Shown here: piece after piece, positions 17,687-26,990 of the stretch
Layout of the letters: each line of letters begins with the position of its first letter
Numbering within the stretch: position 1 is the stretch's first letter
Assembly (NCBI GenBank): GCA_029863525.1
Contig: JAOTVL010000024.1
Coordinates: 1 to 35,909 of the forward strand
Direction: 5' to 3'
From: Gemmatimonadota bacterium
Lineage (GTDB): Bacteria > Gemmatimonadota > Gemmatimonadetes > Longimicrobiales > Gaopeijiaceae
Length of the DNA stretch: 35,909 bases
Translations under genes and position numbers: made by a program
The notes under the pieces: generated by a model
The model's database searches: none
What the model saw: the letters and a program-made list of their open reading frames with translations, nothing else
Told to the model about the DNA's origin: nothing

Positions 17687-18709
17687 ATGTCTACCCCGAA
17701 CAATCGCGGGCCCAGTTGCCGTGCCGATAGATCGGACTCGCTCGTCGGGTCCTTGCGGGAGTGTCTGGTGGGGGCATCTCACCCCGGTTGGTTCAAGACG
17801 CTCTCGGCAGTCAGCCTCTTGGCGATCCTCGCCGCCTGGACCAGGGAAGAGCCGGTTCAGGGCATTGCGATGATGGACGCCATATCGGTGTCGGAAGCAC
17901 CGACCCGGACACTGCCGCTCGAATCGAATGCCCGCGTCGATCGCTGGGTGCACGCGTTCGAGACTTCACGCCGTCCGGAGTTCGAGCGACTCATGAGTCG
18001 TCGCGCGCTCTTCTCGGATATGATCCGATCGAAGCTGCGCGAACGGGACATGCCGGAGGAGTTGCTGTACATCCCGGTGATCGAGTCTGGGCTGTCACCC
18101 TTCGCGGTGTCACGTGTCGCCGCCGTCGGGCTCTGGCAGTTCATGAGCCCGACCGCGATGCAGTATGGCCTGCGTGTGGATGAGTACGTGGACGAGCGCC
18201 GCGACCCGGTGCGCGCCACCGATGCGGCTCTCGACTACCTCTCGTGGCTGCATGACCGCTTCGGTGGCTCTTGGTACCTCGCGGCGGCTGCGTTCAATGC
18301 GGGACCGGGACGGGTGGAGCGCATCGTCAATCGTCACGCCGACGGCCGAATGGAGGACGACGTCTTCTGGGAGATCCTCGAATATCTCCCACGGGAGACG
18401 CGGGAGTACGTCCCGAAGATGATTGCGGTGACCATGCTCGCTCGCGAGATCGGCGCGGGGACGTTCTACGACGCGGACCTCGAGCCGTACCGGTACGACA
18501 ACGTCTTCGTGCCCGGGAACACGACGCTCCGAAGCGTCGCCCGAGCCCTCGACATCGAGACTCGGGTCCTACGCTATTTGAATCCCCACCTGATCCGGGG
18601 CGTCACGCCCCCAGGCGAGATCTACGGGGTTCGGGTGCCGGTCGGGGCGCACACGTCGGTGGTCGAGGCGATGTCGGACAGGTCGACCGGGGTTCGCGCG
18701 GACGACTGA
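17687..18709 (+). CDS. MltD-like lytic transglycosylase with SLT domain
   Basis: The 340-residue protein has one N-terminal hydrophobic segment (about 33-51) that would anchor or export it. A GH23 SLT domain follows: YIPVIESGLSP at 128-138 with catalytic Glu133, GLWQFM at 148-153 and AFNAGPGRV at 202-210. Near residues 280-325 lies a LysM-like peptidoglycan-binding segment (TTLRSVARALDI, YLNPHL, YGVRVPVG). It cleaves the glycan strands of peptidoglycan with formation of anhydromuropeptides. The ATG at 17687 has an excellent GGAGGT just upstream. The 64-residue region before the catalytic part is unusually long and polar for a signal peptide. It converges on the symporter gene, with 41 nt between them. 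Confidence 0.92.
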   Translation: MSTPNNRGPSCRADRSDSLVGSLRECLVGASHPGWFKTLSAVSLLAILAAWTREEPVQGIAMMDAISVSEAPTRTLPLESNARVDRWVHAFETSRRPEFERLMSRRALFSDMIRSKLRERDMPEELLYIPVIESGLSPFAVSRVAAVGLWQFMSPTAMQYGLRVDEYVDERRDPVRATDAALDYLSWLHDRFGGSWYLAAAAFNAGPGRVERIVNRHADGRMEDDVFWEILEYLPRETREYVPKMIAVTMLAREIGAGTFYDADLEPYRYDNVFVPGNTTLRSVARALDIETRVLRYLNPHLIRGVTPPGEIYGVRVPVGAHTSVVEAMSDRSTGVRADD

Positions 18710-18750
18710 GACTCGTCGCGCGGCTCCATCACGCCTTTTCTGGCGGTCGG

Positions 18751-20208
18751 TCACGACAGATAGCCGGCGAGGTGCTCCTCGCTCTGGGCAGGCGTCGCGA
18801 GGCTCACGGTTACGAGCACCGGCACATGGACGAGGAGCCCGAGAATCCCCTCGTGCATGTCGAACGGCTTGAGGTCGGGGTTCTGCCAGAAGAAGAACGC
18901 CGTCGCCGCACCCGCGATCAAGCCGGCGACGACCCCGGCCGTGGTGGCCCGCCGCCAATAGAGGGCGGCGATCACGGGCGGAGCGAACTGCGAGATGATG
19001 CCATACGCGGAGGCGAGCAAGAGGACGAGCGACGAGTCCGGATCCTGAGCGAAGACGTACGCCACGGCGCCGGTGAACAGCACCAGGAGCTGCATCAGCC
19101 GTCGCTGCATCTTCTCGTCCAGGTCGACGAACTTCGCCACGCCGTCCTCGACGAAGACGGACGCCGAGGCATGCAGCAGGGCGTCGCCCGTCGACATCGA
19201 GGCGGACAATGCTCCGGCGCAGAAGAGCCCGACCACGATCGCGGGTAGCTCAGTCTCGAGGATCATGAACGGCAAGATGAAGTCCGGCGCGGGGGGTGAG
19301 CCCGCGAAAAGGACGCCGGAGAACCCGATCAGGAAGACCGGGATCAAGAACAACTGGAAGGTGGGGAACAGGATCACCGTTCGACGCATCGTGTCGTCGT
19401 CCTTCGCGGTGAACGCCTTCATGAAGAGGTGGGGCCACATCATCAGGCCGACCGCGCTCACGAGGATGAACGTGGAGAACGCGCCCCACGTCCACGGCTC
19501 GCCCGCTGCGTCGAGTCCGGGCGGCGTGAGTAGATCGGGGCGTGCGACCTGGATCTGGGTGAACATCTCTCCGATGCCCCCGTACAGCCGGTACGGAAGG
19601 TAGAGACCGAGCGTCCATGCGATCACCACCATGAAGACGCCCTGAAACGTGTTCGTCCATCCCACGGCCATCGCTCCGGCCGACAGGACGTAGACGATGA
19701 CGATCCCGTAGGCGACGAGCGAGCCGAGCCAGATCGGGACATGGCCGTCCGTGACGGCTTCGATCACGATCCCCGCGCCCCTCATCTGGAGGGTCACATA
19801 GGGGACGAACGCGACGAGACTGAGCAGCGCGATCAGGGCGGACAGTCCCTTCGACGGGAAGCGGCCGGTGATCAACTGTGCCTGCGTCACGTAGCCGTGC
19901 TTCCTACCCAGTGCCGCCACGCGAGGCCCGATCCAGTAGAACGGGGCCATGCCGATGGCGCCGTACGCCAGGATGTAGAAGGCCGCCCCTCCCCGCGAAT
20001 AGGCCCACCCCGGTCCTCCGAGGAAAGCGAACGCGCTGAAGACCGACGCCCCGGTCACGAAGTACATCACCAGGAGCCCGAAGCTCCGGTCGGCCGCGAC
20101 ATAGCCGGTGACGCTGTGCGTCGAACGTCTCCCGGCGAGGAGCCCGATGGTGAGCGTCACGCCGAGGTAGACGGAGATGATGATCGTAACGACGACCCAC
20201 TGCTCCAT
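18751..20208 (-). CDS. Sodium:solute symporter (SSS family)
   Basis: The 485-residue protein is hydrophobic throughout, with about 13 predicted membrane helices. It has the SSS hallmarks GYVAADRSFG (35-44), TGASVFSAFAFLGGPGWAY near 52-70 and, later, ALSASMSTGDALLHASASVF. It imports a solute with sodium across the inner membrane. The substrate is not readable from sequence. Partnership with a DUF3311 subunit is known for monocarboxylate-type carriers such as MctP, and the neighbouring acyl-CoA genes make a carboxylic acid plausible. The ATG overlaps the DUF3311 stop as TGATG, so the two are translationally coupled. It is the last gene of the minus-strand run. Confidence 0.92.
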   Translation of the reverse strand: MEQWVVVTIIISVYLGVTLTIGLLAGRRSTHSVTGYVAADRSFGLLVMYFVTGASVFSAFAFLGGPGWAYSRGGAAFYILAYGAIGMAPFYWIGPRVAALGRKHGYVTQAQLITGRFPSKGLSALIALLSLVAFVPYVTLQMRGAGIVIEAVTDGHVPIWLGSLVAYGIVIVYVLSAGAMAVGWTNTFQGVFMVVIAWTLGLYLPYRLYGGIGEMFTQIQVARPDLLTPPGLDAAGEPWTWGAFSTFILVSAVGLMMWPHLFMKAFTAKDDDTMRRTVILFPTFQLFLIPVFLIGFSGVLFAGSPPAPDFILPFMILETELPAIVVGLFCAGALSASMSTGDALLHASASVFVEDGVAKFVDLDEKMQRRLMQLLVLFTGAVAYVFAQDPDSSLVLLLASAYGIISQFAPPVIAALYWRRATTAGVVAGLIAGAATAFFFWQNPDLKPFDMHEGILGLLVHVPVLVTVSLATPAQSEEHLAGYLS

Positions 20209-20429
20209 CAGTCCGCCTCTCCGTCCCGGTACCGCTTTTCAACCCGGTCGACCAGGAACAGGACCACCACACTTCCCGCGATCCATGCCGCGATCCATGA
20301 CATCGCGAAGGGAAGGCCGAAGATCAGTGGCTCGACCCGAGAGAACGGCACGAGGCCCGGCCACGTCACGGCGACCGTCATCGCCACGAAGTACGCGGCC
20401 GCGAGCACCCGGGTGGTCCTCAGGCTCAT
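20208..20429 (-). CDS. DUF3311 small membrane protein, partner of the symporter
   Basis: The 73-residue protein has two hydrophobic segments (about 8-28 and 36-62) and a charged C terminus (DRVEKRYRDGEAD), the layout of DUF3311 proteins. Members of this family often lie directly upstream of SSS symporter genes and are thought to be accessory subunits, though their role is not established. Its ATG overlaps the stop of the serine hydrolase gene (TGATG), and its stop overlaps the symporter start in the same way. All three should therefore be made together. Confidence 0.8.
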   Translation of the reverse strand: MSLRTTRVLAAAYFVAMTVAVTWPGLVPFSRVEPLIFGLPFAMSWIAAWIAGSVVVLFLVDRVEKRYRDGEAD

Positions 20430-21376
20430 CAACGGCTTCCGCTCACGCGACGCTTCACGTCGAGCGGCACCCTCGTGCCGTACTCGGTGACGCCCGAGAG
20501 TCGACTGAAGTAGCTGTAGGCCAGCGCGGACACCGCCTCGATCACGGCCCCACCGTTACCCCCGTAGTTCGACATGACCACGAGGACGTACGGGCGGTCG
20601 GGCACGTCGACCAGGCCCCAGACCGTCGAGACCCCCGTGATGCCACCCGGCTTGAACGCGATCGGGACGGAGTTCGGGACCGGGGCCCGGATCGGGCCCC
20701 CTTTGAACAGCTCGAGGATCTCACGGACGCGCGCGCACGACGCCTCGCTCATCGGTAGCTCGCAGCGGGCGATCTTTTCCATGATCAACGCGGCGTCGCG
20801 TGGCGTGGAGAGGTTCTCGTTTCCTCGAGCGGATTCCTCGGGCCGGATCATCTTCCGCTGGAGGAGGGTCTGCGTCGTACCCAGCGAGCGAGACAATGCG
20901 TTGATCGCATCCATGCCCAGCTCGTCGATGAGCACGTTGGTCGCGGTATTGTCCGAGTGCACGATCATGTAGATCGCGTAGTCCTCCAACGACAGCGCCG
21001 AACCGCCGTCGGTGAGGACCTGAAGCACCCCGCTCCCCGCGGTGCGGACCTCGTCGGTCAGCTCGATCCTGCGCCCCAGCAGGCCCGGCTCGGATTCGGC
21101 ACGTCGGAAGAGCTCGAGCAGAATCGTGACCTTGATGGCACTGGCCTGGGGAAAGACCATGTGATCCTGCACCGCGAAACGGTCGCCGTTGGTCAGATCG
21201 ACCAGATGCACGCCCGCGACGCCTTCGTAATCGTCCACGACGGCCATGAGGTCGGTCTGGAGCTTTTCCCTCAGGATCTCCAGGTGCTCGGCTTGGGCGC
21301 GGGCTGGCCCGGGACCGAAGGCGGTCAACGCAAGGCACGCAACGAGGACGGTCGGGTCGAACTTTCGACGGCTCAT
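20429..21376 (-). CDS. Secreted serine hydrolase, class A beta-lactamase-like fold
   Basis: The 315-residue protein has a signal peptide (residues 1-28, ARA-Q cleavage) and the penicilloyl-serine motifs: SAIK at 79-82 (SxxK), SDN at 141-143 and KPG at 242-244 in place of KTG. The overall order and length match class A beta-lactamase-like proteins. The omega-loop ExxLN motif that supplies the deacylating Glu of true class A enzymes is not recognisable (RPEESARGNENLSTP occurs there). I therefore call it a serine hydrolase, possibly a peptidase or esterase, rather than a resistance enzyme. GGAGAG precedes the ATG. It is coupled to DUF3311 and the symporter, so it may release a transported product in the periplasm. 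That role is inference. Confidence 0.83.
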   Translation of the reverse strand: MSRRKFDPTVLVACLALTAFGPGPARAQAEHLEILREKLQTDLMAVVDDYEGVAGVHLVDLTNGDRFAVQDHMVFPQASAIKVTILLELFRRAESEPGLLGRRIELTDEVRTAGSGVLQVLTDGGSALSLEDYAIYMIVHSDNTATNVLIDELGMDAINALSRSLGTTQTLLQRKMIRPEESARGNENLSTPRDAALIMEKIARCELPMSEASCARVREILELFKGGPIRAPVPNSVPIAFKPGGITGVSTVWGLVDVPDRPYVLVVMSNYGGNGGAVIEAVSALAYSYFSRLSGVTEYGTRVPLDVKRRVSGSR

Positions 21377-21450
21377 CCGGCTCTCCGGGGTCAGGGGACG
21401 AAGGCCATCGTAGTGCCATGCAGGGTGCTTCGCACGGCCTCCGGGGCGGA

Positions 21451-22233
21451 TCAGCGCCCCTTGAAGTCGGGCTTCCGCTTCTCCACGAACGCGCGCACGC
21501 CTTCCTGGCCGTCCTCGGACGCGAACGCGTCGAGGAAGCGCTCCTTTTCGTACTCGATTCCCTCGGCGAGCGGCAGCTCGTACGCCGCCCGAATCGCGTC
21601 CTTGGCCAGCCTCAGCGACACGGGACTCCAGCGGACCATCCGCCCCGCGAGCTCGAGGGCCCGGTCGAGGTGCTCACCCTCGTCGACCAAGACGTCCACG
21701 AGCCCGATCCGATACGCCTCGTCGGCTTCGACGAAGTCCCCGGTCAGGCTGATGATCGAGGCCCACCCCCGGCCGACCAGCCTCGCGAGGCGTTGCGTGC
21801 CCCCTCCGCCCGGAATGAGCCCGATGCGGATCTCTGCCTGGCTGATCCGGGTCGTACGGTCCGCTACGCGGACATCGCACGCCAGCGCGAGCTCCGAACC
21901 GCCTCCGATGCAGAAGCCGTGAAGCGCGGCGATGACGGGCTTGGGGAAGTCGGCGACGGTTTCGTAGATTCGCCGCTCACGATAGACGGCGCGCTGTTCG
22001 TCCGGCGTGCGCGTGTGGAACTCCGTGATGTCGGCTCCCGCGACGAAGGCCTTCTCTCCCGCGCCATGGATGACGACGGCACGAACGTGGTCGTCTCCGG
22101 CCAGCTCGTCGAACGCCTCGCGCAGGATTCGGCGGACCTCGCCGTTCAGCGCGTTGAGCTTCTCGGGTCGGTTGAGCGTGAGGACCGCGATGTGGTCCTC
22201 GCGTCGCTCCACCAGGACGGGCGTGTCGGACAT
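21451..22233 (-). CDS. Enoyl-CoA hydratase (crotonase), both catalytic Glu present
   Basis: The 260-residue crotonase-fold protein has LNRPEKLNALNG (20-31), the oxyanion-hole segments VAGADI (64-69) and GGGSE (110-114), and QAEIRIGLIPGGGGTQRL (132-149). Glu114 and Glu134 match Glu144 and Glu164 of rat mitochondrial enoyl-CoA hydratase, and the C terminus FVEKRKPDF is also typical. It should hydrate short-chain trans-2-enoyl-CoA, such as crotonyl-CoA, to the L-3-hydroxy form. GGGAG lies 6 nt before the ATG on the coding strand. It lies 65 nt downstream of the 3-hydroxyacyl-CoA dehydrogenase gene, the next enzyme of the pathway. Confidence 0.93.
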   Translation of the reverse strand: MSDTPVLVERREDHIAVLTLNRPEKLNALNGEVRRILREAFDELAGDDHVRAVVIHGAGEKAFVAGADITEFHTRTPDEQRAVYRERRIYETVADFPKPVIAALHGFCIGGGSELALACDVRVADRTTRISQAEIRIGLIPGGGGTQRLARLVGRGWASIISLTGDFVEADEAYRIGLVDVLVDEGEHLDRALELAGRMVRWSPVSLRLAKDAIRAAYELPLAEGIEYEKERFLDAFASEDGQEGVRAFVEKRKPDFKGR

Positions 22234-22298
22234 TCGCTACTCCCTGGGTGTGCGGTCTGATCGCCGGCCCCTCACTCCCCGGCCCGGGACGGGGTTGT

Positions 22299-23153
22299 TC
22301 ACCATGCGTAGAAGCCGCCGCCGCTCTTCTTCCCGAGCTTGCCCTCCGCGACCATCCTGCGCAGTAGAGCCGGGGGCTCGAACGCGTCGGATCCGAGCCG
22401 CTCGTGCAGGTACTCGGCGATGCCCAGGCGGACATCGAGACCCACCAGATCGGTGAGCCTCAGAGGCCCCATGGGGTGGCGATATCCGAGCTCCATCGCC
22501 TTGTCGATGTCCTCCGCGCTTGCCACCTCCTGCTCGACCATCCGGATGGCCTCCATGCCCAAGACGATACCGAGCCGCGAGGAGGCGAAGCCCGGCGCGT
22601 CCTTGACGACGATGGGCTCCTTGTCGAGCCGCCGGGCGAAGTCGACCGCGGCGTCCCGAGTGGCGTCGGACGTCTCGGGGCCCCACACGACCTCGACGAG
22701 CTTCATGATGTGCACCGGATTGAAGAAGTGCATGCCGACGAAGCGGGACGGATCTCGAACGACCGAAGCGATTTGTCCGATCGACAGCGAGGAGGTGTTC
22801 GTCGCGAGGATCGCTTCCTCAGGCGCCGCGACGTCGACTTCGGAGAAGATCGACTCCTTGAGCTGTATCGACTCGGGGGCGGCCTCCACCACGAGGTCGA
22901 CGCCGTCGACCGCCTCCGCGATCGATGTCGTCGTCGAGAGGTTGGCCATGATCGCGTCGCGCTCGTCCGCGGTGACCTTCCCTCGTTCGATGCCTTTGTC
23001 GAGGTTGGCGCGCACCCGCGCGAGTCCGGCCGCGACGGCGCCTTCGTCGATGTCGTAGAGTCGCACCGCGCACCCGGCGGCGGCGCTCACCTGTGCGATG
23101 CCGTGTCCCATCGTGCCGGCCCCGAGCACCGCGACCGTATCGATCGTGCTCAT
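22299..23153 (-). CDS. 3-hydroxyacyl-CoA dehydrogenase (3-hydroxybutyryl-CoA type)
   Basis: The 284-residue protein has an N-terminal NAD-binding Rossmann fold with GAGTMG at 11-16 and an acidic Asp34/Asp36 that prefers NAD. The catalytic residues are Ser121 or Ser122 (NTSSLS), His142 (MHFFNPVH) and Glu154 (KLVE). The GFIVNR loop that carries the active-site Asn of human HADH reads GFASSR here, with Ser192 at the Asn position. I recall this form from actinobacterial relatives, so it may mark a subfamily. The enzyme oxidises 3-hydroxyacyl-CoA to the 3-keto form. The ATG overlaps the thiolase stop (ATGA). The gene is full length for single-domain, Hbd/PaaH-type enzymes. Confidence 0.92.
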
Positions 23154-24352
23154 GCTCGCTCCACGAGGCTGGCGATGCCTTGGCCGACCCCGATGCACAT
23201 CGTGGCCAACCCCCGGCGTGCGTCCTGGCGCCTCATCGCGTGGAGGAGCGTGACCAGGATTCGCGCCCCCGAGCAACCGACCGGATGGCCGAGCGCGATC
23301 GCTCCCCCGTTCACGTTCACACGCTCGGGATCGAGGCCGAGCTCCGCGATGCAAGGCAGGGCCTGGGCCGCGAAGGCTTCGTTGAGCTCCACGAGGTCGA
23401 GATCGCTTACGCTCCACCCGTAGCGGTCGAGCGCCCCTCGGGTCGCGGGCACCGGTCCGATTCCCATGCGATGGGGCTCCACACCGGCGACGGCACCGCC
23501 CACGATGCGTGCCATGGGCGCGAGTCCGTGAGCGCGGCCGTAATCCGCCGACACGACCAGGAGCGCAGCCGAGCCGTCGTTGATGCCCGACGAATTCCCC
23601 GCCGTCACGGTACCGTCTCTCTTGAAGACTGGCCGCAGACGGGCGAGTGACTCCGCGGTGGTGTCGGATCGGGGGTGCTCGTCGGTGTCGACCACGATCG
23701 GCTCACCTTTTCGGCGAGGCACTGAAACGGGAACGATCTCGTCGTCGAACCGCCCCGCGGCGATGGCGCGCTCAGCGCGCTGTTGGCTTTCGGCCGCGAA
23801 CGCGTCCTGCGCGCCGCGCGAGACGCCGAACTCCTCGGCGACGACCTCGGCCGTTTCTCCGAGTCCGATCGTCCACTCCGGGGTGAACGCCGGATTGGGG
23901 AATCGCCAACCCAGCACTGTATCCGCGGTTTCGGGATGGCCGCGCTGATAGCCGACGGACGGCTTGAGCATGACGTAGGGAGCACGGCTCATGCTCTCGA
24001 CGCCACCCACGACGAACGCGTCGCCCTCACCGGCGGCGATCGCCTGGTTGGCGGAGAGGACCGCCTGCATTCCCGACCCGCATAGGCGATTCACCGTCTG
24101 ACCCGGCACGGTCACTGGCAGCTCGGCGCGTAACAGCGCCATACGCGCCACGTTGCGGTTGTCCTCCCCCGCCTGATTCGTGCATCCGAAGATCACGTCG
24201 TCGACGGAGTCCGGCGCGATACCCGTCCGTTCGAGCAGCGCGCGAATCGTCACGGCCGCGAGGTCGTCGGGCCGGATCGACGCGAGAGCCCCTCCGTGTC
24301 GGCCGATCGGTGTGCGGACCGCGTCGATGATCCACGCCTCTCGCTCAGCCAT
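23150..24352 (-). CDS. Thiolase, beta-ketoadipyl-CoA (PcaF/PaaJ)-like acetyl-CoA C-acyltransferase
   Basis: The 400-residue protein has the nucleophile Cys91 in [19 protein letters not shown] with the catalytic His near the C terminus, and CIGVGQG carrying the second Cys. The block [18 protein letters not shown] (55-72) is a signature of beta-ketoadipyl-CoA and 3-oxoadipyl-CoA thiolases (PcaF, PaaJ), although general acetyl-CoA acetyltransferases in some phyla share it. It cleaves a 3-ketoacyl-CoA with CoA to give acetyl-CoA. ATG 24352 overlaps the aldehyde dehydrogenase end by 8 nt, and its stop overlaps the next start. Whether it works on acetoacetyl-CoA or a dicarboxylic substrate is not settled. 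No other aromatic ring-degradation gene lies in the window. Confidence 0.9.
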
Positions 24353-25802
24353 CGACGGCCACCCACACGCTCTTCGTCTGCGTGTACTTGTCGAGCGCCG
24401 CGGCGTAGCCGAGATCCCGACCGAAGCCGCTCTGCTTGTATCCGCCGAACGGCGAAGCAGAATCGTACTGGTTGTAGGTGTTGATCCACACCGTGCCCGC
24501 CTGGATTTCGCGGGCGACTCGGTGTGCCTTGCCGATGTCGCGGGTCCAGACGCCCGCGGCGAGTCCATAGATCGTGTCGTTGGCGGTCCGGATGGCGTCC
24601 TCCACGTCGTCCACGGGGATGACTGCCGCGACCGGGCCGAAGATCTCTTCCCGAGCGATTCTCATCTCGGACGCCACGTCTGCGAAGACCGTGGCCGTGA
24701 CGAAGTTGCCCTTCCCGTCGACCGTGGTGCGCTCGCCACCGCTCACGAGGCGCGCACCCTCTGCTTTTCCGGCCTCGACGTATGCCATGACCCGATCGAG
24801 CTGCTCCTCGCTCACGATCGCTCCGAGGCGAGTGCCCTCGTCCATCGGGTCGCCGACCGTCGCCTTGCTTGCGCGCTCCGCGAAGGCGGCCACGAACTCG
24901 TCGTAGATCGGCCGCTCGACGAGCACTCTGGATCCGGCGGCGCACACTTCGCCCTTGCCGTAGAAGATGCCGGTCGACGCCCCGCGGACCGCGCTCTTCA
25001 AGTCGGCGTCCGCGAGGACGATGTTCGGCGACTTCCCGCCCAATTCGAGAGACACCTTCTTGAGCGTCTCGGCGGCTTCGCGCATGACGATCTTGCCCAC
25101 CTCGGTCGAGCCCGTGAACGCGATCGCGTCGACGTCGGGGTGTCGAACCAGTGCGGCGCCGGCGCTTTCGCCGAAGCCGGGGACCACGTTGAGCGCGCCG
25201 GGGGGGAAGCCGACCTCGGCCGCGAGCTCGCCGAGGCGGAGCGCCGTCAGGGGGGTCTGCTCGGCCGGCTTCAGGATGACGGCGTTCCCGCACGCGAGCG
25301 CGGGCGCGACCTTCCAGGCCGCCAGCGAAAGAGGGAAGTTCCACGGGGTGATGCAGCCCACGACGCCCACCGGCTCCCGCAGCGTGTAGTTGAGGAACGG
25401 TCCCGCGACCGGGATCGTGTCTCCCTGGATCTTGTCGGCGAGGCCAGCGAAGTAGCGGAAGTTCTCGACCACGCTGGGCAGATCGACCTTCCGAGCCTCG
25501 AAGTACGGCTTGCCGTTGTCCGCCGTCTCGAGCGCGCCCAACTCGTCGGCGTTCGCCTCGATGGCGTCGGCGAGCTTCCACAGAAGCTTCGAGCGCTTGT
25601 GGGGGTTCATACCGCGCCACCCCTTGTCGACCATCGCAGCGCGCGCCGAGGCGACCGCCTTGTCGACGTCCGCAGCCTGGGCGGACGCGACGTCTGCGAT
25701 TCGCTCACCCGTGGCGGGATTCACCGTTTCGAACGTCCCACCGTCGTTCGCGTCGACCCACTCGTTTCCGATCCACATGCGGTTTCGCACGTTCTGCAGC
25801 AT
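24345..25802 (-). CDS. NAD(P)-dependent aldehyde dehydrogenase
   Basis: The 485-residue protein is a standard non-acylating aldehyde dehydrogenase. It has the cofactor-binding block ITPWNFPLSLAAWK, FTGSTEVGK, the general base Glu in LELGGKSPN, the catalytic Cys in GEVCAAGSR (usually GQxC), EEIFGPV and the C-terminal FGGYKQSGFGRD. It oxidises an aldehyde to an acid. The closest overall look is to betaine- and phenylacetaldehyde-type enzymes, but the substrate is open. The ATG at 25802 follows GAGGTGG on the coding strand, which decides it over an in-frame start at 25835. It heads the unit that continues into thiolase and hydroxyacyl-CoA dehydrogenase by overlaps, so its aldehyde probably feeds the same CoA pathway. 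Confidence 0.93.
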   Translation of the reverse strand: MLQNVRNRMWIGNEWVDANDGGTFETVNPATGERIADVASAQAADVDKAVASARAAMVDKGWRGMNPHKRSKLLWKLADAIEANADELGALETADNGKPYFEARKVDLPSVVENFRYFAGLADKIQGDTIPVAGPFLNYTLREPVGVVGCITPWNFPLSLAAWKVAPALACGNAVILKPAEQTPLTALRLGELAAEVGFPPGALNVVPGFGESAGAALVRHPDVDAIAFTGSTEVGKIVMREAAETLKKVSLELGGKSPNIVLADADLKSAVRGASTGIFYGKGEVCAAGSRVLVERPIYDEFVAAFAERASKATVGDPMDEGTRLGAIVSEEQLDRVMAYVEAGKAEGARLVSGGERTTVDGKGNFVTATVFADVASEMRIAREEIFGPVAAVIPVDDVEDAIRTANDTIYGLAAGVWTRDIGKAHRVAREIQAGTVWINTYNQYDSASPFGGYKQSGFGRDLGYAAALDKYTQTKSVWVAVDG

Positions 25803-25866
25803 CTGTCCACCTCGGCTTCGGGGTCCACCACTCATTGTGGGCGAACCCGCTCATGTCGAACGAGCG

Positions 25867-25899
25867 AAGCGGGATCCGGGCGCGCGCCGGACCCCGCTT
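25867..25899 (-). terminator. Long hairpin between hydratase gene and aldehyde dehydrogenase operon
   Basis: Positions 25867-25879 and 25887-25899 are inverted repeats forming a 13-bp stem with a single A-C mismatch and a 7-nt GCGCGCG loop. It lies 27 nt after the stop of the minus-strand hydratase gene and 65 nt before the aldehyde dehydrogenase start. No T-run follows on either strand. It probably ends or attenuates the hydratase transcript, so the downstream genes may have their own promoter in the remaining gap, though I saw none. Confidence 0.45.
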
Positions 25900-25925
25900 C
25901 AGAGACTCGGGCGTCGTCGGTCCGG

Positions 25926-26726
25926 TCAGCTGCCGGAGAACTCGGCCTTCCGTTTTTCTACGTAGGCGTTGAGCCCCTCCTTCGCGTCGGAGCTCGCGAA
26001 TAGCTGTGCCTGAAGCTCTCGCTCGAGCGCCAGCGCCAACTCGAAGGGGAGTTCTGCACCCGTCTGCACGGACCGCTTGATGAGGCCGACGGCCTTCGTC
26101 GCCTTGTTCGGCGTCGTGAACTGACGCGCGTATTCCAGCACCGCTTCGACGAACGAGTCCCGGTCCTCGTGGTCGTAGATCTCGTTTACGAGCCCGTGCT
26201 TGTGGGCGTCGTCGAAGCCGAACGTGGTTCCCTCGGCCATCATCTGGATGGCGACTGGCTTGCCGACCAGCCTGACCAACCGCTGCGTCCCACCGGTTCC
26301 GGGCAGAACGCCCAGCGCCACCTCGGGCAGGCCGACCTTACCGGCGTCCTTGCGTGCGATCCGGATGTCGGCGGCCATGGCGATCTCGAGACCGCCACCC
26401 ACCGTGTGTCCGTTCAGAGCCGCAATGACGAGCTTCGGAGTATGCTCGAGGCGGTTGAGGGTCTCATTGGCGTGCAGACAGAAGCAGTACTTCCAGTCCG
26501 GGTCGGCCTCCGAGAGCATGCCGATGTTGGCTCCCGCGCAGAAGAACTTCTCACCGGCACCCGTGAGCACGATGACCTCCACGCTCTCGTCGAAGCGGGC
26601 CTCGATGATGGCCTGGTCGAGTTGCCGCATCATCTCGTGGGTGTACGTGTTGGCGGGCGGGTCGTCGAGGGTGAGCACCGCGACCTTGTCGTTCACCTCG
26701 TAGTGGACCAAGACCGAATCGGACAT
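25926..26726 (-). CDS. Enoyl-CoA hydratase/isomerase family protein
   Basis: The 266-residue crotonase-fold protein starts at ATG 26726 with AAGGGAA upstream; the longer frame to 26855 shows no family similarity. It has LDDPPANTY (20-28, in place of the usual NRP), CAGANI (63-68), GGGLE (110-114) and LPEVALGVLPGTGGTQRL (133-150). Glu114 and Glu135 are at the two catalytic positions, so water addition to a 2-enoyl-CoA is likely. The C terminus YVEKRKAEF is typical. The loop at residues 75-95 (DPDWKYCFCLHANE) with two Cys is unusual. It is divergent from nfeD and separated from the next minus-strand gene by a hairpin. It could be a second hydratase with a different chain-length or branching preference from the one at 21451-22233. 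Confidence 0.9.
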   Translation of the reverse strand: MSDSVLVHYEVNDKVAVLTLDDPPANTYTHEMMRQLDQAIIEARFDESVEVIVLTGAGEKFFCAGANIGMLSEADPDWKYCFCLHANETLNRLEHTPKLVIAALNGHTVGGGLEIAMAADIRIARKDAGKVGLPEVALGVLPGTGGTQRLVRLVGKPVAIQMMAEGTTFGFDDAHKHGLVNEIYDHEDRDSFVEAVLEYARQFTTPNKATKAVGLIKRSVQTGAELPFELALALERELQAQLFASSDAKEGLNAYVEKRKAEFSGS

Positions 26727-26990
26727 CTGGGCGTTCCCTTGCAGATTTTGAATGCGGATCGGCGCTCCGGGAGCTCGCGCGTGGACCCGAACCATAGGGC
26801 TCGGCCGGCGGTCCTGAAGAGCCTGAAAGGTCCCGAAGTCGGGCCCGAGGGTCAACCTGGCGTCCAGCGCTCAAAACCAGCTCGGGGGCCGGAGGATCGA
26901 AGGATTTGGCTCGTTCGCACGTACTCACGTTGTGTGGGGTATGAGAGTCCGTACCTTGATGTCGATGGAGATCCCGTGGAGCCTCTACGC

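Follow-up and report, generated by a model that had tools for sequence, protein, structure and literature searches.

A PBP-A-like serine hydrolase gene beside a DUF3311–symporter pair and a CoA gene run in Gemmatimonadota

In the mctP operon of Sinorhizobium fredii NGR234, a small DUF3311 gene and the gene of a sodium:solute symporter (SSS, family SSF) stand in one operon, and the available part of the source reports that MctP, an SSF member, transports alanine, pyruvate and lactate and that deletion of the DUF3311 gene hardly affects growth on pyruvate (PMC9100948). The same pair occurs on contig JAOTVL010000024.1 of a Gemmatimonadota bacterium, the 35,909-nucleotide stretch of DNA that was analyzed as a whole and that we call the window (from a genome of 3,621,428 bases in 221 contigs, 83.14% complete). 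Here, unlike in what that part of the source describes of the mctP operon, the pair is joined to a gene for a serine hydrolase, and the three genes lie at the end of a run of genes for CoA enzymes.

The closest described counterparts of the hydrolase share its class A-like fold and its lack of Glu166. Among them, PBP-A of Thermosynechococcus elongatus (2j9o, 2j7v and 2j8y), with SxxK and SDN motifs, is 28-31% identical to it; the available portion of PMC11189452 describes PBP-A as a dd-carboxypeptidase/endopeptidase that penicillin G inhibits covalently and that is found only in cyanobacteria, whereas the present hydrolase is from Gemmatimonadota. The 'beta-lactamase' 4ewf of Sphaerobacter thermophilus (29-30% identical), the best phmmer match, has RKM at the class A Glu166 stretch. 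LRA-5 (8eo5), a metagenomic class A precursor, is only 18% identical and has Val at position 166 where the hydrolase has Met, and its beta-lactam activity is insignificant according to the accessible part of PMC12777564. We give an about even chance to the reading that the hydrolase is an exported PBP-A-like enzyme of murein peptides, lodged in a degradation operon whose carrier is the DUF3311-SSS pair.

The three-gene set and its recurrence at the CoA run

An earlier note on this DNA, made from the sequence alone, described three genes joined by two TGATG overlaps, and the coordinates together with both junctions, each an overlap of one base, confirm this arrangement on the minus strand. Its family assignments also hold: the hydrolase matches PF13354 (165.6 bits, cut-off 22), the DUF3311 protein, with its two hydrophobic stretches, reaches 41.2 bits for PF11755 (gathering cut-off 30), and the carrier reaches 129.8 bits for PF00474 (gathering cut-off 22.8). 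The set is genuine, if rather unremarkable, its parts being of known kinds, and the overlaps suggest coupled translation, not a common substrate. The arrangement goes beyond chance: among relatives, 24 DUF3311-SSS pairs were called in loci L034-L093, and 17 of them share the identical one-base overlap. At the hydrolase/DUF3311 junction, the TGATG overlap was found in none of the 11 junctions called in relatives, where the spacing was -4 in eight and +44 in three (values that depend on the caller's choice of start codon). Promoter-like sites numbered zero within positions 18600-26900 (0.3 in shuffled sequences) and terminator-like sites five (3.4 in shuffles).

Within NCBIfam, the carrier stays below the cut-off of TIGR00813 (sodium/solute symporter superfamily; 119.7 vs 184 bits) and below the equivalog cut-offs for MctP (141.6/625 bits), PanF (143.9/328.05) and PutP (122.6/515.5). 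When viral contigs were searched with patterns for a carrier relative, no stretch matched.

Recurrence was followed in 146 genomes of the order, which form part of a phylum sample of 346. One best match per genome was counted at thresholds of 1e-30 for the hydrolase, 1e-100 for the carrier and at least 55% identity for the 3-hydroxyacyl-CoA dehydrogenase (HBD) of the run, the lower rows listed being taken as paralogues; linked genes are those on the same contig with starts less than 8 kb apart, and the linkage counts pass over a second match in each of G011 and G133. Within the order, the hydrolase was found in 44 genomes, the carrier in 84 and HBD in 104. Of the 71 genomes with both carrier and HBD, 63 have the two linked, and DUF3311-SSS most probably belongs to the CoA run itself. 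The search for the triplet in other genomes that the earlier note had proposed showed that it is not unique to this genome: 16 of the 146 have a linked hydrolase and carrier, 15 of them at the CoA run. Linked pairs are directly adjacent with only DUF3311 between them in 15 of the 16, with one more gene between in G119.

The 44 hydrolase genomes divide into 15 with carrier and HBD both linked to it, one with the carrier linked but HBD on another contig (G080), three with HBD but no carrier, 24 in which the hydrolase lies apart from both, and one too broken by contig ends to be counted as linked or apart (G135). Hydrolases of the 24 retain the same active-site residues. Seen from the 63 carrier-HBD runs, the hydrolase is present in 15, lies elsewhere in the genome in 16 and has no match at 1e-30 in 32, so that 48 runs are without it. 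Hydrolase and carrier do co-occur within the order (carrier in 35/44 genomes with the hydrolase vs 49/102 without; p 5e-4 by a simple test over the 146 genomes, this count, like the others here, being uncorrected for kinship). Elsewhere in the phylum sample, 13 genomes have the hydrolase, 28 the carrier and none both.

The gene order in relatives is a second enoyl-CoA hydratase (crotonase)-family gene (ECH2), an aldehyde dehydrogenase gene (ALDH), a thiolase gene, HBD, an enoyl-CoA hydratase gene (ECH), a slot, DUF3311 and SSS (no anchor was called in eight of the 40 loci L054-L093, namely L056, L061, L062, L078, L082 and L091-L093). The slot between ECH and DUF3311 is empty or holds the hydrolase alone or the hydrolase with an S51, M28-like or M1-like protein, and in G010, G019 (family f2) and G032 the hydrolase follows ECH with no carrier. 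The M28-like (L070) and M1-like (L046) labels come from motifs only. A cyanophycinase-type S51 gene stands directly upstream of the hydrolase in several relatives (L090, 9711-10709; L098, L099, L101), with a family scan in L090 only. On a tree of 51 rows, the label for being in a run with the carrier is clustered: it needs four changes, compared with 13.9 in shuffles. At least three of the four are forced by starred branches; therefore, the hydrolase probably entered or left the run repeatedly. On this tree, the branch of G001 is very long and its position uncertain, and G080 is labelled in-run though its HBD is on another contig.

The repeated linkage of the run and the DUF3311-SSS pair leads us to propose that ECH2-ALDH-thiolase-HBD-ECH-DUF3311-SSS may be one degradation operon, probably a single transcript, with DUF3311-SSS as its uptake carrier. 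The ECH-DUF3311 slot would accept guests, exported peptidases among them, and in the window's genus the guest would be the PBP-A-like serine hydrolase.

The hydrolase and its relation to class A enzymes

As read from its sequence, the hydrolase begins with a signal-like stretch that ends in ARAQA, followed by all three class A motifs: S79-A-I-K82 (SxxK), S141-D-N143 (SDN) and K242-P-G244 (KxG). The earlier note's description of an SxxK/SDN/KPG hydrolase without ExxLN is borne out by these positions and by the phmmer alignment with 4yfm, a class A enzyme, in which M176 falls opposite the Glu of the DRTEVQLN stretch, so that the hydrolase has no ExxLN or Glu166. Across 45 homologues, two of them from G133 and one from each of 43 other genomes, S79, K82, S141, D142, N143 and K242 are invariant inside and outside the run; residue 176 is Met in 44 of 45, and E187 and N188 are each conserved in 44 of 45. 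The class A beta-lactamase model NF033103 of NCBIfam is not reached (81.2 bits vs a cut-off of 200).

By phmmer, the nearest solved proteins are 4ewf (3.9e-21) and PBP-A tll2115 (1.9e-19). Ranks 1-15 of Foldseek for the structure model (pLDDT 91.0, pTM 0.87) are all PBP-A or 4ewf chains. Ranked by VIA Z, 6v4w comes first (32.9), with LRA-5 (32.5; 1.9 Å, 257 aligned), 4ewf, 4hes, PBP-A and many class A enzymes within 2 Z. The tree of 51 rows contains no PBP-A row.

In G101, the hydrolase frame runs to 583 amino acids (aa), about 270 of which form an additional C-terminal part (L035, 13999-15750; L011 holds this gene too). The titles of close relatives in the named collection read Gemmatimonadales or Gemmatimonadota, and hydrolases 72-78% identical to the window's also appear in public records under the names Acidobacteria, Chloroflexi, Gammaproteobacteria and Pseudomonadales (L095, L096, L102, L105); these four titles may be wrong, or the genes may have moved. 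A literature search for Gemmatimonadota with serine hydrolase and solute symporter found no paper, and among the literature matches listed no title concerned relocation of the carboxylate.

Neighbors of the hydrolase and alternative explanations

We propose that the hydrolase would be exported, would form an acyl-enzyme on the SxxK serine and would act on murein peptides, most likely with D,D-peptidase or D-amidase activity and not as a beta-lactamase. This role is suggested by the sequence, the fold, the missing Glu166 and the neighbors of relatives. The earlier note held that the hydrolase may release the acid or amino acid that the carrier imports; in some distant relatives, the neighboring genes suggest murein peptides instead. 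In a family scan of one locus of each kind, the Pelosinus-type locus (L144) reads oligopeptide ABC, hydrolase, SBP_bac_5, S66 (LD-carboxypeptidase) and M20 peptidase; in Pontibacter (L117) the hydrolase is followed by two murein amidases (Amidase_3 and Amidase_2); and in Aminicenantes (L124) the order is SLT/LysM, hydrolase, MR_MLE and NlpC/P60. One further distant-relative locus holds an Amidohydro_3 protein of D-aminoacylase type. The named loci number 80, and no hydrolase was called in eight (L097, L102, L106, L108, L156, L167, L170 and L173). Near and far neighbors were compared in 37 of the 80, for genes of 90-720 aa. Near genes (at most two places away, n=130) include oligo_HPY nine times, NLPC_P60 four times and S66, Amidase_3 and MR_MLE three times each. 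Far genes (at least five places away, n=116) include oligo_HPY three times, and the other four families are not among the 25 far-gene families listed, whose smallest count is two.

Several observations weigh against an enzyme of murein peptides lodged in another pathway's operon. Near and far counts are similar for ABC_tran (10/6), SBP_bac_5 (4/2) and Amidohydro_3 (2/2), and the 37 loci were chosen after their neighbors had been seen, so as to drop near-copies, with several similar clusters remaining. The relatives with murein-type neighbors are only 27-46% identical to the hydrolase, many loci have other neighbors, and close homologues stand beside type III polyketide synthase-like, FAD-oxidoreductase-like, D-aminoacylase-like and S9-like genes. 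The gene for an SLT-domain protein that converges on the carrier is also found beside runs without the hydrolase, and the slot has non-peptidase guests as well, such as proteins of 83-87 aa in L064-L066 (family f2). The VIA Z of PBP-A (31.2) is level with that of many class A enzymes; the fold alone therefore does not separate PBP-A from class A. E180, opposite the Asn of the DRTEVQLN stretch (the Asn170 place) and Glu in 39 of 45 homologues, might be a relocated base. Finally, the window's genus was sampled with 12 genomes; 10 have the hydrolase, in every case inside the run, and G100 has none.

The mixed company of the close homologues would also fit a non-murein serine esterase or amidase that was placed in the run by accident, as would an occurrence in only 44 of 146 genomes, unlike that expected of a housekeeping murein enzyme. 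We regard this as unlikely, given PBP-A among the nearest structures and the murein-peptide neighbors of some distant relatives.

A chain of release and import, in which the exported hydrolase would cut a peptide, amide or ester and so free an acid or amino acid for uptake by DUF3311-SSS and breakdown by the CoA run, appears doubtful and somewhat harder still to uphold, though it keeps some likelihood for the window's genus, where the hydrolase mostly holds its place. It draws on the tight association and DUF3311 overlap within the window's genus, on the peptidase-like character of some other slot guests and on the substrates of MctP in the same carrier family, which are those given above from PMC9100948. 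The part of the earlier note's claim that has the carrier serve the run stands, as the 63 linkages among 71 genomes indicate; the part that has the hydrolase make the carrier's substrate is not supported, with the hydrolase missing from 48 of the 63 runs, apart in 24 of 44 hydrolase genomes and never together with the carrier outside the order. In G116, of the same genus, the rest of the run is in place and its carrier is 90% identical to that of the window, but the gap between ECH and DUF3311 (L055, 9521-9866) holds only remnants matching hydrolase residues 166-190 (68%, 2.4e-4) and 290-313 (83%, 1.7e-7), apparently a degraded hydrolase gene. Overall, the interpretation offered in the earlier note is partly supported.

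A true beta-lactamase, with Glu180 or another base in place of Glu166, would be in keeping with PF13354, the class A fold and the conserved E180. We consider it improbable in view of Met176 at the Glu166 place, the low score against the class A model and, as far as the cited sources describe them, the insignificant activity of Glu166-less LRA-5 (PMC12777564) and the covalent inhibition of PBP-A by penicillin G (PMC11189452).

The CoA run and the phenylacetate pathway

The features of the window are collected in Table 1. The PBP-A-like hydrolase lies close downstream of a run comparable to the lower phenylacetate (paa) pathway, with a thiolase near PcaF, Hbd/PaaH-like and PaaF-like proteins, an aldehyde dehydrogenase and a second crotonase. 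In NCBIfam, the thiolase scores 553.6/605 and 544.3/597 bits against models of 3-oxoadipyl-CoA thiolase and passes a broad acetyl-CoA acyltransferase model; HBD is near Hbd and PaaH, ECH is near short-chain hydratases and PaaF, and ALDH is closest to StyD and betaine-aldehyde dehydrogenase. Unlike in the paa pathway, PaaK is nearly absent here, and no run protein reaches an equivalog cut-off among the NCBIfam matches listed. We infer a lower-phenylacetate-like route.

A PaaA-like gene occurs in 93 of the 104 genomes with HBD and in nine of the 42 without. PaaK has no match at 1e-3 in the window's genome (83% complete; another ligase is possible), and at 1e-60 it matches in seven of the 146 genomes of the order, none over the cut-off, while the same search matched six of 14 control genomes, one over the cut-off. 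Phenylacetate import as a plain answer is weakened by the missing PaaK. A long-type phenylpyruvate oxidoreductase (PF20169) was rejected as a source of phenylacetyl-CoA, with matches in none of the 146 genomes at 1e-20 and in one of 14 controls. For PaaL together with a symporter, only a Rhodococcus genome paper turned up in the literature.

Elsewhere in the window's genome, a PaaA/PaaC-type locus (L176; G000:C25, 7059-9480) has two PF05138 genes (198.3 and 90.1 bits, cut-off 28.5; PaaA equivalog 125.6/280, PaaC 63.6/133.35), between which lie a PaaD-like PF01883 gene and a gene of 77 aa without a Pfam match. Many PaaA-like matches in other genomes (G053, G045, G011 and others) are reported with one internal stop codon, which perhaps lies immediately ahead of the point where the alignment ends.

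Beta-lactams can be consumed by a route that brings beta-lactamase, amidase and phenylacetate genes together. A counterpart here, in which the hydrolase would cut an aryl-acetyl amide or conjugate outside the cell, DUF3311-SSS would import the aromatic acid, and the CoA run and an unlinked PaaA-like epoxidase would degrade it without PaaK, seems very improbable.

Table 1. Features of the window around the three-gene set
Feature	Position	Strand	Remarks
SLT-domain protein (lytic transglycosylase type)	17687-18709	plus	convergent with carrier
Sodium:solute symporter (SSF), carrier of CoA run	18751-20208	minus	485 aa
TGATG overlap, DUF3311 stop/SSS start	20206-20210	minus	
DUF3311 small membrane protein	20208-20429	minus	73 aa; hydrophobic stretches 8-26 and 42-60
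TGATG overlap, hydrolase stop/DUF3311 start	20427-20431	minus	
Hydrolase	20429-21376	minus	315 aa; PF13354; predicted exported PBP-A-like serine hydrolase
Enoyl-CoA hydratase ECH (PaaF-like)	21451-22233	minus	74 bases upstream of hydrolase
3-hydroxyacyl-CoA dehydrogenase HBD (Hbd/PaaH-like)	22299-23153	minus	
Thiolase, nearest 3-oxoadipyl-CoA thiolase PcaF	23150-24352	minus	
Aldehyde dehydrogenase ALDH	24345-25802	minus	
Second enoyl-CoA hydratase (crotonase)-family protein ECH2	25926-26726	minus	first gene of run

On the 3' side of SSS, relatives have the convergent SLT gene followed by two genes for ribosomal proteins, which we take to be L27 and L21; a chorismate-mutase-like gene often comes before these. 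The chorismate-mutase-like gene (PF01817 in L054, 2725-3063) overlaps the end of the carrier gene in many relatives and is absent from the window.

Together, these results extend the PBP-A-like enzymes without Glu166, a group relevant to the origins of beta-lactamases, by a branch from Gemmatimonadota. They describe a carrier gene pair that remains with its degradation run whether or not the hydrolase is there, and they call for caution: overlapping genes do not imply a common substrate, as the same hydrolase sits elsewhere in relatives.

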